From IMG/VR virus record IMGVR_UViG_3300037587_000202, positions 1 through 31,422 of that record: a DNA stretch of 31,422 bases; one strand, written 5' to 3'. This document shows, piece after piece, positions 2,355 to 23,975 of the stretch. How positions within the stretch are numbered: the first letter of the stretch is position 1; each line of letters begins with the position of its first letter. Source of the stretch: a virus. The notes under the pieces are model-generated. The model saw only the letters and a list, made by a program, of their open reading frames with translations. It was not told the origin of the DNA and made no database searches. A program made the translations under genes and the position numbers.

Positions 2355-4511
2355 CTAAGCACTCTGAGAGATCTCATGGAAAACATTATTGATGCGGATA
2401 AAACACAACGTTGTTTCAGTAGGTACTATAAAATCAGCGCCTTTTTTCAGCTTAATGTTGGCATTATTTCTAATCGTATAATTGCCGTTTGAGAAACGTA
2501 GAGCGATGAAGTCTTTTGCTGCGTTAGTAATATCTGCTATCGATGTGGCACCTGCCGCAGACAGAGAGACTATATTGCTCCAGTTCATGTCCAACGTGAT
2601 ATCAGCTCCAACATCTCCGTTTGACTCATGTGGACCTGTGCTGATATAAGCGTCATTTGATAAATGACCTATTTGAGCCTCATCAACTTGTAATCCAGAT
2701 ACGTTGAAAACCACCCCTTTACGAACCGTCGAACTCTGCTTCATTCCATTAATGGTTAGAGTAGATACATCATCATCCTCTACATGGATGTTAGTCTGTG
2801 TCGCTAGTTGTGCCCCGACCATCTCAGCGTTTGAAATACTGACAACGCCTTTATTTATAAAAATACCGCGCACATTAGCATTGCTAAATTCAAGATGGGG
2901 AGTGAAGAAGTTAACCACAGCTCTAGTTCCGCCGAATAAACTGCCGTCAATATGGATTACATCTTGTCCTGCATCTACATCTTCCCATGCTCCGCCGTAA
3001 ACGTTCACAGTGAAATCGCCCTCTACCCTGAGAGTATTGCCGCCACACTCATCGGACCATATATTATGCAGCTCTATTGGCCCGCCATCACCTAATGCCA
3101 CGTTGTCTGGAGATGCTACAAGCCTGATGTTATGAGATGAGCACTCAGTTACGGAAATATCTCTGAAAGTAGAGTTTACAAATACCTGGTTTAGCCTAAT
3201 TCCTTCACAAGTAGCCCCGCCGCTCCGGTTGCCGTCTATCCGCATTCTGCGCAGGAACATGAATTCCTGACCGACACCTGTCTTTGTTTCGTTCTCGAAC
3301 ATTGCCCCTGAAAAGGCAGTGCCAGATTTAGCTTTGAAGAAAGTAGTAGTTGTTCCTCCCCCGTCCATGCCGCACTTTTCAGGAATTAATACACCCAGAC
3401 TTATTCTGAATCTACCTGCTCCAGCGTTAACCTCCACACCCTGCGCAAATGTTTTCATGTATCGAATCATGGACGCTAGCGCTGAATCGTTCCCCGAGGC
3501 CTCAGAGTCCTGATCCCCTCCCTTAGCACCCCACCATTTAAGGTAAGCATCGCTGAATCCTGCAACAGTACCTAACCCGGTGAATATCTGATGATCCGGG
3601 TTCGCTGTTAAGCCGTTGCTGAATGTAACTGTGATTGCGGTGTCAATAGACAGCCCACCCCCCGCAAAGAATACAGGGTTTGTAAAAGTCAACGCTGATT
3701 TTATGTTAGCGGTACCAGCAGGTAGCGTCACAGGCCCGAACGCATCTGCATTGAATAGGGCTAATCTATCATCCGTAACCCCATCCATTACAGCACCGAA
3801 CAATTTAGCGCTTATAAATGTTGGGAAGTTTTGTTCAAGCTGGTTTCCGTTCGCAAGATCAATGTAAGAGCCGCCGTCTGCTGTGCCGGTAGCTGGCCCT
3901 ACTACCCTGAAGAACATCAGGCCTGAATTGTTACCGGTGGCATAGTCATCGATAACTACAACCACTCCAACGGTGAGATCAGCGACCACACCATCAAGCG
4001 CAACAGGGCTGGCCGCTGTGGCTACTGCTACTGTAGCGAATATAGGGCTGTAGCGCTTGTCCGACATTACTTTACTAGGTTCAATGTTGAATCTATCATT
4101 TGATAAATCATAAACAGCACTAATTAAATTACCTGTCACAATGCTATTCGATAACAGGACACCCCCTGTGTCAGTTGTTAGTGATTTAACACCAAGCCCT
4201 GCGACATTTACGGTGGATGCTCCATTGTTTGTATTACCGGCAATAAATGATATTTCAAACCCGTCAGTGTATGAAGGCGCCCGCTGCTTGCTGCCAATGA
4301 CTGAAAGAACATAAGCATCCGCTGCGCCACTATCAGTATAGAAATTGCCGTTCGCAACATATCCGGCGATCGCCTTACCGAGTTGGTTAAGGTCACCACC
4401 GGATAACGTGATTCCGAGTCCTTCGATGACGCTTTGAATCTCCGACGGGACTTCATTCCACTCTGCAGCAGTAAGCGTCCCACCCGTTATTTTATCGTTC
4501 AGGTCTTGCAT
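2355..4511 (-). CDS. Tailspike / tail fibre with pectate-lyase-type beta helix
   Basis: This 718-residue protein is the last gene of the tail operon. The N-terminal ~150 residues include D-L-N-Q-L-G-K-A-I-A-G-Y-V and a repetitive beta region of the kind that anchors phage fibres to the baseplate. Around residues 233-250, K-L-F-G-A-V-M-D-G-V-T-D-D is the classic entry motif of a right-handed parallel beta helix of the pectate-lyase superfamily. A second, related motif (K-W-W-G-A-K-G-G-D...D-S-A-L) follows about 90 residues later. The helix continues with many Asn/Gly turns, and the C-terminus (F-S-N-G-N-Y-T-I-R-N-N-A-N-I-K-L-K-K-G-A) resembles a terminal beta domain of tailspikes. The expected role is host surface binding, possibly with glycan depolymerase activity; catalytic residues cannot be assigned by eye. 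AAGGGG lies about 10 bases before the ATG. No fibre-assembly chaperone follows. Confidence 0.85.
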   Translation of the reverse strand: MQDLNDKITGGTLTAAEWNEVPSEIQSVIEGLGITLSGGDLNQLGKAIAGYVANGNFYTDSGAADAYVLSVIGSKQRAPSYTDGFEISFIAGNTNNGASTVNVAGLGVKSLTTDTGGVLLSNSIVTGNLISAVYDLSNDRFNIEPSKVMSDKRYSPIFATVAVATAASPVALDGVVADLTVGVVVVIDDYATGNNSGLMFFRVVGPATGTADGGSYIDLANGNQLEQNFPTFISAKLFGAVMDGVTDDRLALFNADAFGPVTLPAGTANIKSALTFTNPVFFAGGGLSIDTAITVTFSNGLTANPDHQIFTGLGTVAGFSDAYLKWWGAKGGDQDSEASGNDSALASMIRYMKTFAQGVEVNAGAGRFRISLGVLIPEKCGMDGGGTTTTFFKAKSGTAFSGAMFENETKTGVGQEFMFLRRMRIDGNRSGGATCEGIRLNQVFVNSTFRDISVTECSSHNIRLVASPDNVALGDGGPIELHNIWSDECGGNTLRVEGDFTVNVYGGAWEDVDAGQDVIHIDGSLFGGTRAVVNFFTPHLEFSNANVRGIFINKGVVSISNAEMVGAQLATQTNIHVEDDDVSTLTINGMKQSSTVRKGVVFNVSGLQVDEAQIGHLSNDAYISTGPHESNGDVGADITLDMNWSNIVSLSAAGATSIADITNAAKDFIALRFSNGNYTIRNNANIKLKKGADFIVPTETTLCFIRINNVFHEISQSA

Positions 4512-20379: not shown

Positions 20380-21564
20380 TTACGCCTTCACCTGCAGCAG
20401 CTTGATGGCTTCCGGCAGAGTTACCTGGCCAGTGTTCCAGCGCTGGAGGGTGAATTCGACGATCGCCTTGCGCTTCTGAGTCACCTCGTCACGGATCACG
20501 GCCAGGCCGGTACGATCGATGATGGTGTAACCCCGAGCGAAGTCACCGAATGCGATCGGGATGGCCGCGCTGGCGATATCAGGCATGTCATTGGCGATCA
20601 GGTAAGGGAAGCCGTTGATGGTGTTCATCACGACGCCGTTCATACCTGGCTGCCACAGAGGATGACCGTCACCGCCTTTCAGGGTCCGGAGGAATGCCAG
20701 GGTGCGACGGTTAAACACATAAACCGGGTTGTAACCGGTCTTCAGGTCACCGGTCAGCAGCATCACGTCATCGAAGTTCACAGTACCGGAGGAACCCGAG
20801 ATCCGAGCGTCCGCAACGACACGGCTGTCAACGGTGAAGCCTTCCGGCTGCTTGAAACCTGTACCGGCCACGAACCCTTGACCCTCGCCCAGAGCGAAAG
20901 ATTCACCACCGTCGCCCATGATTTCGGCTTCCATATCGAAAGCGGAATCCATCAGCATATCCATGGTGATCGGGATCGTGACAGTCTGTCGGAACGCTGT
21001 CAGCGTCTCGTTCTGGTAGGTGCTGGTGTCATCGGTACCAAGTTCCGCCTCGCCTTCATACTGCGCGGTTGGAATGGTGTCGCGGACAGGAACTTCCAGG
21101 GACTTAGCGCCGATGGTTCGAACCCGGGCGATACGTCGGATGTCAGAGATTTCCGTGATCTTCTTGGTGATCGCGTTGTCCATTTCGGTCGGAACCAGGA
21201 AGCCGCCTTGGACATCACTGTCGGTGCGGAGGGCTGCTTTCTGCTCAGCGTCCAGAGAATAGACGTCACGCTTGACGAACTGTTCGAGAGCCTTGTATTC
21301 GTCGCTTTGGTGGTAGTCCTTACCCTCTCCGGCACCACCAGAACGAGCCAACTCAGTCTCAAGAACGTCCATGCGCTCTTTCAACTCGTCGGCGGATTTT
21401 TCGGCGGTCTTGGTATCAGTCAGAAGCTGCTGGTTCTTTTCTTCCTGAGTTGCCAGAACGGCTTCGATCTTGTCGATCTTTTCGAAGTTAATCGATTTCT
21501 TGTCAAACTCTTTACGCAGCTCGGATACCGCCTCGGCTACATCGTTCATAGTGGGATCGGACAT
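20380..21564 (-). CDS. Major capsid protein, HK97 fold
   Basis: This is a 394-residue protein. Residues 1-75 form a charged coiled coil (E-L-R-K-E-F-D-K-K, A-T-Q-E-E-K-N-Q-Q-L-L, A-D-E-L-K-E-R-M-D-V-L-E-T-E-L), the delta domain that serves as an internal scaffold and is removed by the protease. Then A-L-R-T-D-S-D-V-Q-G-G-F-L-V-P-T-E-M begins the mature arm. I-R-R-I-A-R-V, E-V-P-V-R-D, A-E-L-G, the E-loop region and the C-terminal F-G-D-F-A-R-G-Y-T-I-I-D-R-T-G-L-A-V-I-R-D are typical of the HK97 capsid family. AGGAGG lies 6 bases before the ATG, one of the strongest ribosome sites in the window. The 253-base structured leader upstream and the UUCG hairpin downstream suggest separate post-transcriptional control of this highly expressed protein. 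Confidence 0.95.
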   Translation of the reverse strand: MSDPTMNDVAEAVSELRKEFDKKSINFEKIDKIEAVLATQEEKNQQLLTDTKTAEKSADELKERMDVLETELARSGGAGEGKDYHQSDEYKALEQFVKRDVYSLDAEQKAALRTDSDVQGGFLVPTEMDNAITKKITEISDIRRIARVRTIGAKSLEVPVRDTIPTAQYEGEAELGTDDTSTYQNETLTAFRQTVTIPITMDMLMDSAFDMEAEIMGDGGESFALGEGQGFVAGTGFKQPEGFTVDSRVVADARISGSSGTVNFDDVMLLTGDLKTGYNPVYVFNRRTLAFLRTLKGGDGHPLWQPGMNGVVMNTINGFPYLIANDMPDIASAAIPIAFGDFARGYTIIDRTGLAVIRDEVTQKRKAIVEFTLQRWNTGQVTLPEAIKLLQVKA

Positions 21565-21596
21565 AACGTCCTCCTGCTGTCGGTTACGTATTATCT

Positions 21597-21666
21597 ATCG
21601 TTTCCGGCTTCAGGCATCCCACCTGCTGCAGCGTTTCGGCATCTCACCGACCCGCGGTTCGGGCAT
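21597..21666 (-). repeat. Three imperfect ~24-base repeats in the capsid leader
   Basis: On the minus strand units begin with ATGCCCGAAC (21666), ATGCCGAAAC (21642) and ATGCCTGAAG (21617), spaced 24 and 25 bases. The first two are in one frame and could encode an 18-residue peptide; the third opens an 8-residue frame. No ribosome site supports translation of the first. Confidence 0.5.
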
Positions 21667-21672
21667 GTTCTA

Positions 21673-21809
21673 AGGTTGTTTAATTAGAACGGTCGGTACT
21701 GATCTCCGACTTGATATCTTGTTATGAGAGCTTTCACCCTTTACCAGTGATACCCGGGATGGTCCGTCCCTGTGCATCAGTCCGCACATTCGTTCTAATT
21801 AAACAACCT
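21673..21809 (-). ncRNA. Structured RNA candidate in the leader of the capsid gene
   Basis: The gap between protease and capsid genes is 253 bases in an otherwise tightly packed operon. A perfect 19-bp inverted repeat (AGGTTGTTTAATTAGAACG on the minus strand at 21809-21791, and its complement at 21691-21673) closes a 99-base interior. The interior contains four further hairpins: 21788-21771 (TGTGC/GCACA), 21770-21756 (GGGA/TCCC), 21750-21734 (TCACT/GGTGA) and 21710-21692 (GTCGG/CCGAC). The first two loops both carry GGAC. The fourth hairpin abuts the closing stem. Only about 100 bases separate the element from the capsid ATG. It could be an mRNA processing site, a translational control element or a stable RNA. 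No T tract follows, so it is not a simple terminator. Confidence 0.6.
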
Positions 21810-21817
21810 CTTAAAAT

Positions 21818-23086
21818 CTACTTCTGTAAATCTTTCTTAAACCCTTTGAGCTCAGCCATCAGCTGCCTGAGTTCTTCGTGATCTTGATTGTCGGTTGGTT
21901 TCTGCTTGACGTCAAGTTTTCCGGCCAGGGTCTTGGCAGCTGACTTTGACATCATGCCGGTATCGCGCAGAAACTTCTCAAGGTCACGCTCTGACCAGGC
22001 TTTGACGTCATCGGCTACAAAATACTGTTTGTCGTCACTGCTGAACGGACTATCGATGCCCATCTTTGCATAATAACGCTCAATGTGGCGGATAACTGTT
22101 GGCCGATCGCCTTCAGGAATGTCGACCCCACCGCGGGCGCCAAGCAATGCCGCAGCTGCTGCAAAGATTCCCCGAGGTACCGCGGTCAAGCGCCCATCGA
22201 TCACATCAGCGATCGGCAATTTGTAGGATCCAAACTGATCTGGTGCCGTCTGGTCAAACCATACAAAGCCCTGGCGATACTTTGAAGTAGGCTGCTCAGT
22301 CGAATCGGTGAACTCACGCACCCGGGAGATAGCTGCATTGGCATCCCATGGGCGGTCTTGTGCAGCCAGCGGCAGGTCTTGGAAAGGTACTGCGGCTTTG
22401 ACTTCGGTGATCCTGGCTTCTGGGTTCATGGGCTCGTCTACGGCTGATCCTTCCCATACGATTGCCTTGCGGATGACTCGAACTCCATTTTCCATAGAAT
22501 CTTCTAATGAAGTAAACCCAATGGAAAAATCAGAAACAACGCCCTGCTTGATTAAAGCAAATAACTCTCGCCCTTGTTGAACCTCGAGATTAATCTCGCC
22601 AACAACGAATAGACCTTTCTCATCCTCTAAAGCAGTTTCAATAGGAAAGCCACCGACTGTGCGACCGTGATGATCCTTGAATCGAATAGGTCGATTGTCA
22701 CGACGGTGCTGCTCAAGAGATTCTAGGAATGCACCAGGGGCGAAACGATCAAACCCGCGATCTATGTCGAACGTCGCAATATGCCCTTTGACGATACCAA
22801 CAGGAACGCCATTGCGCTCGATCTGTTTGAACTCAGCGATATTGCCGCCGACGAATTTAATCTCGCGTGTCATGTTGTCGCCTTTGTCATCCATATTGTC
22901 TCGATCAATTGGTGGTGATGTGACTTCACCGTCCAGAGTGTGGGTGTGATCTCCACCAAGCGGCCCGTTTGACGAGGTGCGATTCCCCGTCACCGTGTGC
23001 CAGTGCAGATTTTCGTCAGCTGGATCCGGTACCGGAGGGCTGGTCTCTGTACCATCTGGCATCAAGTGAATGTGTAAATGGGCCAT
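21818..23086 (-). CDS. Prohead maturation protease (HK97 / U35 family)
   Basis: This is a 422-residue protein from ATG 23086, supported by GGAGG 8 bases upstream; an in-frame TTG at 23101 lies before that site. Residues 1-55 are an unusual His-rich leader (A-H-L-H-I-H-L and G-G-D-H-T-H-T-L-D-G-E). Residues 75-225 are the serine protease: F-A-P-G-A-F, then K-D-H-H-G-R-T-V-G (catalytic His 139 or 140), D-F-S-I-G-F (Ser 188) and W-E-G-S-A-V-D-E-P (Glu 212). Residues 250-350 form an extra domain (K-Y-R-Q-G-F-V-W-F-D, F-G-S-Y-K-L-P-I-A-D-V-I-D-G-R-L-T-A-V-P-R-G-I-F-A-A-A) also seen in other phage proteases. The C-terminus ends in a charged helix that may act as scaffold. It cleaves the capsid delta domain. 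Confidence 0.9.
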   Translation of the reverse strand: MAHLHIHLMPDGTETSPPVPDPADENLHWHTVTGNRTSSNGPLGGDHTHTLDGEVTSPPIDRDNMDDKGDNMTREIKFVGGNIAEFKQIERNGVPVGIVKGHIATFDIDRGFDRFAPGAFLESLEQHRRDNRPIRFKDHHGRTVGGFPIETALEDEKGLFVVGEINLEVQQGRELFALIKQGVVSDFSIGFTSLEDSMENGVRVIRKAIVWEGSAVDEPMNPEARITEVKAAVPFQDLPLAAQDRPWDANAAISRVREFTDSTEQPTSKYRQGFVWFDQTAPDQFGSYKLPIADVIDGRLTAVPRGIFAAAAALLGARGGVDIPEGDRPTVIRHIERYYAKMGIDSPFSSDDKQYFVADDVKAWSERDLEKFLRDTGMMSKSAAKTLAGKLDVKQKPTDNQDHEELRQLMAELKGFKKDLQK

Positions 23087-23090
23087 CGTA

Positions 23091-23975
23091 TCAGCCTCCA
23101 AGGCTTGTTAGTAGTTGCTCGCTCGCTGTTCGATCTGTTCTGGCTTCTTCGCCACGCTGCCTGCGTATTGCGAATACTGACTGCGCATCGATAACACTGC
23201 TGCATCGACAGTTTATAATATTGCCCGCCGATGCGCCAAGGCTACTGTCGCCTGGCCAGCGTAGCAGTTGACCGCCTACGCTGAACGGTTGGTTGAGTGT
23301 GACAACTTGGCTGTCAGCTAGCATGTGAGCCTGCCTGACACGTTCGTCGCCGACTGTAACCCACTCTTTTGTCACTGGCGTTTCGCGCAACGATCCGCCG
23401 GTAACGCTCGGAGGTTGGAATGTCAAAACCTGAGCCTCAGTCGCCTTGGCCGTCTCCGCCGGCGCCTGGGTTTCGAGTGACGCAATGCCCGTGACGCGAC
23501 CTCGTAGCTTGCGACTCAGTATAGCCCCAACACCCAATGCAATCTCTGTCCTGACTTGAGGCCGGCCGGCTGCCGCTTCTTCCTGGCTGACAGCAATGGC
23601 AGTGTCGATCGATGTCTGGATATCGCGCTGATTGGTACCGGTTATGATTTCAGACTGCTCTGGCGCCCGGGTGCCGAAGAATATGGCAAGTGCCGCGGCG
23701 ATGGCTTCAGTTTCGGAATCAGTAGCCTCGATATCGGCCGGCAGTATCTGCGTGATCTGGTCACTGAATTCAGGGCCAACGCGGTCGTAATGTTCTGCGA
23801 GCAACGCTGTGAGCTCTGGCTGCATGTCCGACGCCTGGAATGTCCTCCCAGTCTGAGCGTATTCCTTGACTGTGGCCCGACCTAGCCTGACGTTAAACCG
23901 GCGCATATCCTCAGCCAGCAAACGCTCAAGCTTGAGTTTCTGGGCCAGGTCGCGTCGGGCTTCGTTGGCTGCCAT
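23091..23975 (-). CDS. Mu gpF-like head morphogenesis protein (minor capsid)
   Basis: This is a 294-residue protein. The first ~190 residues are helical. The C-terminal ~90 residues contain the MuF domain: T-K-E-W-V-T-V-G-D-E-R-V-R-Q-A-H, N-Q-P-F-S-V-G-G-Q-L-L-R-W-P-G-D-S-S-L-G-A-S-A-G-N-I-I-N-C-R-C-S. The W-x-x-x-x-D-x-x-V-R-x-x-H and N-C-R-C motifs are diagnostic. MuF proteins are minor head proteins involved in early head assembly, and some carry toxin domains at the C-terminus; none is seen here, as the protein ends about 35 residues after the motif. The start overlaps the upstream stop as TGATG with GGAGGAC before it. Confidence 0.9.
   Translation of the reverse strand: MAANEARRDLAQKLKLERLLAEDMRRFNVRLGRATVKEYAQTGRTFQASDMQPELTALLAEHYDRVGPEFSDQITQILPADIEATDSETEAIAAALAIFFGTRAPEQSEIITGTNQRDIQTSIDTAIAVSQEEAAAGRPQVRTEIALGVGAILSRKLRGRVTGIASLETQAPAETAKATEAQVLTFQPPSVTGGSLRETPVTKEWVTVGDERVRQAHMLADSQVVTLNQPFSVGGQLLRWPGDSSLGASAGNIINCRCSSVIDAQSVFAIRRQRGEEARTDRTASEQLLTSLGG

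Follow-up and report, generated by a model that had tools for sequence, protein, structure and literature searches.

The window, that is, the whole stretch of 31,422 nucleotides that was analysed, is the 31-kb virus record IMGVR_UViG_3300037587_000202, and its sheath and baseplate genes show that it belongs to a contractile-tailed phage. A prohead protease gene is followed by the gene of an HK97-family major capsid protein (MCP), both on the minus strand (Table 1), and the end of the former is separated from the beginning of the latter by 253 bases (21565-21817), which are non-coding, as the initial annotation had held. This gap contains an inverted repeat (IR), the ribosome-binding site of the MCP gene and, placed between the two, a tandem element of two 15-nt hairpins (21609-21652, minus strand), which stops about 45 nt before the MCP AUG and had been overlooked in the initial annotation. 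Elsewhere in the window, a 718-aa protein encoded beside the baseplate genes (2355-4511, minus strand) matches nothing in Pfam or PHROG; its position suggests a possible role as tail fibre or in host recognition.

Table 1. Features at the junction between the protease and MCP genes (window coordinates).
Feature	Position	Strand	Evidence or remark
Prohead protease gene, 5' of the leader	21818-23101	-	PF04586 3.4e-14; phrog_80
IR, left (5') arm, perfect 19 bp	21791-21809	-	Unconserved, missing in relatives
IR interior, 99 nt, four predicted hairpins	21692-21790	-	z -0.94, 35/200 shuffles as good
IR, right (3') arm, perfect 19 bp	21673-21691	-	Inverted-repeat search
Hairpin 1, UCGGU-GAGAU-GCCGA, 5-bp stem, GNGAN pentaloop	21636-21650	-	Model R1 match; covariation
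Hairpin 2, CAGGU-GGGAU-GCCUG, 5-bp stem, GNGAN pentaloop, loop 25 nt downstream of loop 1	21611-21625	-	Model R1 match; covariation
AGGAGG ribosome-binding site, MCP gene	21570-21575	-	Sequence; context ACCGACAACAGGAG conserved in close relatives
MCP gene, HK97 family, N-terminal scaffold-like region	20380-21564	-	PF05065 4.9e-54; phrog_10; presumed target of the hairpins

The IR was correctly described at the outset as a perfect 19-bp repeat with arms 99 bases apart, and its end, initially placed about 100 bases before the ribosome site, lies some 108 nt before the MCP start. On the minus strand, the 253-nt gap folds with z = -4.8 and the 139-nt IR element with z = -5.5, and 0/200 shuffles match either of them; the 99-nt interior alone stays at the shuffle level, so the fold signal is that of the 19-bp IR itself. 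Thus, the four hairpins that had been annotated inside the repeat are indeed predicted, two of them with GGAC loops (GGACUGAU and CGGACCA), but they fold no better than chance. The loops of the first and last interior hairpins, GGACUGAU and AGAUCAGUA, contain a 6-nt complement (ACUGAU/AUCAGU), and a 6-bp kissing contact between them is possible in the one sequence known. Several other readings of the IR were rejected. It does not resemble an intrinsic terminator, as its arms are AU-rich and no U run follows it on either strand, and neither a terminator nor a promoter at this place exceeds chance; no tRNA was found; and a 39-aa ORF within the element has the length expected by chance and lacks a ribosome site at the usual distance.

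No homologue of the IR was found in the IMG/VR, phage or plasmid collections, blastn with the IR returned nothing in phages or plasmids, and the IR is missing from every MCP relative examined. A 17-mer taken from the arm and a 16-mer taken from the interior each gave a single, isolated exact match in IMG/VR, likely by chance. In two relatives whose MCPs are 78-81% identical (L093 and L015), the conserved leader follows the protease stop directly, the whole gap measuring 100-108 nt, and two others, L014 and L016, carry unrelated inserts at about the same protease/leader junction as the IR of the window, the distance between protease and MCP being 545 nt in L014 and 2.3 kb in L016, in which this stretch contains ORFs on the opposite strand. 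Taking into account that relatives hold different inserts at this junction, the site after the protease stop accepts insertions, the IR element among them. The IR is best read, on the basis of sequence comparison, as an insertion private to this phage and separate from the conserved element. By coordinate, the occupants of the junction are the IR element at 21672-21815 of the window and the inserts at 1109-1560 of L014 and 170-2420 of L016. A tRNA-Trp gene is found at the same junction in the Arthrobacter phages Hestia and Isolde (L400 735-806; L404 733-804).

The conserved element is the tandem pair, and all close relatives keep both hairpins between the protease/leader junction and the ribosome site. 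The loop bases G1, G3 and A4 are conserved, position 2 is variable (with GAGAU, GCGAU and GUGAU as common loops), and the stems vary freely; the GNGAN pentaloop probably folds in a GNRA-like manner, its fifth base being looped out. The AUG triplets present in window-class loops were considered as starts of leader peptides, a reading that was discarded because the short ORFs vary in length and sequence among close relatives and the loops of several relatives contain no AUG.

Enrichment of the motif was determined in 91 MCP loci, which came from profile searching of IMG/VR and from scanning bacterial genomes. The 56 distinct leaders contain 61 hairpins of the form Y-GNGAN-R, compared with a mean of 0.72 (maximum 4) in shuffles. 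When GNGAN hairpins with 5-nt loops and stems of at least 5 bp are counted, their density is 5.67 per kb in leaders and 0.20 elsewhere, a 28-fold difference, whereas all other 5-nt loops show no leader enrichment (8.0 vs 9.2 per kb). Among the MCP relatives, 19 kb of leader contain 46 tandem pairs 20-32 nt apart; 441 kb of other sequence contain 3 such pairs, and 460 kb of antisense sequence contain 1. Their spacing peaks at 22-26 nt. In some relatives the protease abuts the MCP gene with no gap, and the hairpins persist within the protease ORF. In one locus (L125), two near-identical hairpins are translated in different frames, as GGMP and RWDA, which points to selection on the RNA and not on the protein.

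Conservation at the level of structure is also evident from covariation. In alignment A4, 99.1% of the cells are paired, a percentage that is partly due to construction since its sequences were picked for forming stems, a choice of which the leader counts and the held-out test are free. Both-side changes occur in 9/10 pairs, and the covariation score is 0.905, compared with 0.42 in shuffled alignments and at most 0.21 when the partners are slid; a larger alignment agrees. The initial annotation had proposed that a functional stem should show compensatory changes in homologous phages, and the tandem hairpins show them. The covariance model R1 matches the window at 21652-21609 (minus strand) with 47.5 bits, the next best match having 9.7, the window being among its training rows. 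In loci outside the training set, the best matches of R1 are in sense orientation and precede MCP, scaffold or terminase genes, a result that is independent only for the loci found through their MCP (L019 to L104), because the others had been found with a pattern of the same motif. One strong copy is present in each of ten viral contigs. In Rfam 15, no family reaches its gathering score in the window, none has E<=5 in the interval, and none is found in ten motif loci.

The motif extends beyond this capsid family. A scan of IMG/VR with a DNA pattern, unseeded by MCP, again placed it before MCP genes (some of their products being 25-30% identical), scaffold genes and terminase genes. Among the matches listed from a second scan, many of which are chance matches in GC-rich coding sequence, a start-codon class was recognised, consisting of a hairpin, a ribosome site and a hairpin with the AUG of the scaffold gene in its loop; it has to be noted that the scan pattern contains ATG, which favours start codons generally and not scaffold-gene starts in particular. 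Among these matches, the class includes L120, L121, L127, L275, L277, L279, L282, L294, L298, L299, L340 and L341, with an MCP detected downstream in several loci. The window class and the start-codon class may be homologous or convergent.

Cultured phages also carry it. Three hairpins of this kind are located at -59, -34 and -3 relative to the annotated scaffold gene in the Mycobacterium phages Milly and Mufasa, that at -3 covering the start codon; R1, which fits the window class, misses the Milly leader. In Arthrobacter phage Seahorse a pair is present with a spacing of 25 nt, and six other Arthrobacter phages have the start-codon hairpin only. The tandem pair was not found in TM4, P22, ST64B, D3 or phiC31; as ST64B has a related MCP and TM4 stands next to Milly, the pair is not needed for such capsids. 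The idea that it is a general feature of HK97-family capsids was likewise abandoned, since 60 Pseudomonadota prophage MCP leaders (with starts chosen by a simple rule) show weak enrichment at most, and the motif is rare among them. HK97 itself has two GNGAN hairpins (L142 3871 and 3940) at the end of gene 4, with stems of 8 bp and 6 bp and 69 nt apart, within 160 nt upstream of capsid gene 5; they are the sole GNGAN hairpins with stems of at least 5 bp in the first 8 kb, and possibly represent a relic of the motif or a chance occurrence. In GC-rich phages, tandem GNGAN hairpins precede small-terminase-like genes (L108 1391-1435, L122 6330-6373 and L327), and in L108 and L327 they lie over a possible start codon, the terminase-like genes constituting a second kind of target.

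The existence of the motif, its conservation as a structure and its location are thus matters of observation; its role has to be deduced from them. Its position before the capsid or scaffold gene, the placing of the AUG inside a hairpin in the start-codon class, the combination of conserved loops with free stems, and the near-constant spacing suggest a two-site, protein-binding translational operator. The hairpins lie at or near the start codon or the ribosome site, with the AUG in the loop in the scaffold class and a distance of 38-90 nt to the AUG, which lies downstream, in the window class. We propose, with a probability of about 0.5, that the tandem hairpins are a cis-acting operator tuning capsid or scaffold synthesis at the level of translation, in which protein binding, the direction of the effect and the ligand are all inferred. 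The operator would sit on the late mRNA and act in cis; a protein, probably a dimer, would bind both loops, and its binding would alter initiation, most likely lowering it, at the capsid gene or at a separate scaffold gene, so that capsid and scaffold synthesis would be matched to assembly. The most economical ligand would be the capsid or scaffold protein itself, perhaps through autogenous control, although the presence of the motif before terminase genes (L108 and L122) makes such a protein ill-suited as the only ligand. In the window, where some 45 nt lie between the last hairpin and the AUG, a direct block of the ribosome is not obvious and repression would need an indirect route, for example a bound protein that spreads along the RNA or the obstruction of a standby site, which is the weakest step of the proposal. 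A wider claim is advanced only tentatively, namely that tandem GNGAN hairpins form a widespread, undescribed operator family in tailed phages of Proteobacteria and Actinobacteria, in which an assembly protein would read the RNA and couple synthesis to assembly.

The initial annotation had itself suggested a structured leader RNA that is bound by a protein and sets capsid expression. This general idea is well supported, with binding being putative, for the tandem hairpins in the same interval and not for the IR, of which no homologue was found. That the functional RNA is the IR itself, together with its four hairpins, as an RNase III substrate, a protein-binding RNA or a stable RNA, would agree with its perfect 19-bp stem and strong fold, and with the 6 bp that GGACUGAU and AGAUCAGUA could form by kissing; yet it is confined to one contig and absent from all relatives, its interior folds at chance level, and L014 and L016 hold unrelated inserts at the same junction, all of which makes this explanation improbable. 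The tandem hairpins could instead be boxB-like sites, recognised by a phage antitermination or elongation peptide that carries RNA polymerase through the late operon. Their size and shape, a 5-bp stem and a predicted GNRA-like pentaloop, agree with this; however, they adjoin a translation start, and cover the start codon in one class, they are located mid-operon and not at a promoter, and their doubling at a fixed spacing of 22-26 nt is unlike nut. A conserved unpaired boxA-like block was not found near the hairpins either, there being none upstream of hairpin 1 in the close relatives of alignment A5, and we hold this role to be hardly probable.

A host RNA-binding or processing factor, or a direct effect on the ribosome, could also act on the stability, processing or initiation of the mRNA, without autogenous control. 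Phages with the motif differ in the downstream gene (MCP, scaffold or terminase) and probably in host phylum, for which a conserved factor would be a simple explanation. Against it, no copy above noise was found, under stricter filters, in 398 Pseudomonadota genomes, so that a host regulon with such a target is not seen; the specificity of the loop and the short 5-bp stems are ill-suited to RNase III; and the motif is nearly always present as a single copy before capsid-assembly genes. A host factor is regarded as rather unlikely, and the translational operator is retained as the preferred reading. We classify the tandem hairpins as a new RNA motif that belongs to a known kind, the phage cis-acting mRNA operator, with a putative operator function. 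The open literature searched describes no such motif, although coverage was incomplete and an earlier description is possible.

Among known systems, the closest in kind are the coat-protein operators of RNA phages (MS2/PP7 type), in which a small hairpin with a sequence-specific loop lies at the start of a phage gene. The start-codon class likewise has the AUG in a hairpin; here, however, the pentaloops are tandem GNGAN loops with no bulged A, the phages are tailed DNA phages, and in the window 45 nt separate the hairpins from the AUG downstream. ANTAR RNAs consist of two adjacent hexaloop hairpins, with conserved A1 and G4, bound by a dimer. The presence of two adjacent hairpins with conserved loop bases is common to both, but those described here have pentaloops with G1, G3 and A4 and no terminator overlap, and an assignment to ANTAR RNA was rejected on loop size and loop bases. 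A CsrA/RsmA site was rejected as well, because position 2 of the loop is any base and a loop GGA is thus not conserved.

The boxB hairpins of lambda and P22 have GNRA-like pentaloops (GAAGA, GACAA) bound by phage N peptides (PMC12550061), a precedent for a phage protein that reads loops of this shape. They share with the present hairpins a 5-bp stem and a 5-nt loop, the GNRA-like fold being here predicted from the sequence alone, and differ from them in that GNGAN has a free fifth base and occurs twice, with a fixed distance between the copies, where capsid translation begins. The Start Associated Sequences of Cluster K mycobacteriophages, 13-bp GGGATAGGAGCCC elements at 11-19 genes per genome (PMC3203893), are also conserved at translation starts, in a phage group that includes Milly and TM4. 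The tandem hairpins have a different sequence and precede a scaffold or capsid gene, and GGGATAGGAGCCC was not found in the scaffold leaders of Milly and Mufasa or in the window leader.

The balance between capsid or scaffold synthesis and assembly is an old question in tailed phages, for which there has been no general RNA target so far. A covarying motif before capsid and scaffold genes of distant phages, including cultured phages of Mycobacterium smegmatis and Arthrobacter, makes the question testable and, if the proposal is true, would provide a compact new RNA-protein recognition module. The scaffolding gene of P22 is autoregulated, according to the account of Wyckoff and Casjens (1985) cited in PMC5744158, which gives a precedent for an assembly protein as the putative ligand. 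The start region of P22 gene 8 is without such a hairpin, and the P22 RNA target is not the tandem GNGAN motif; what both systems would share is the proposed logic, by which the level of scaffold feeds back on its own gene.
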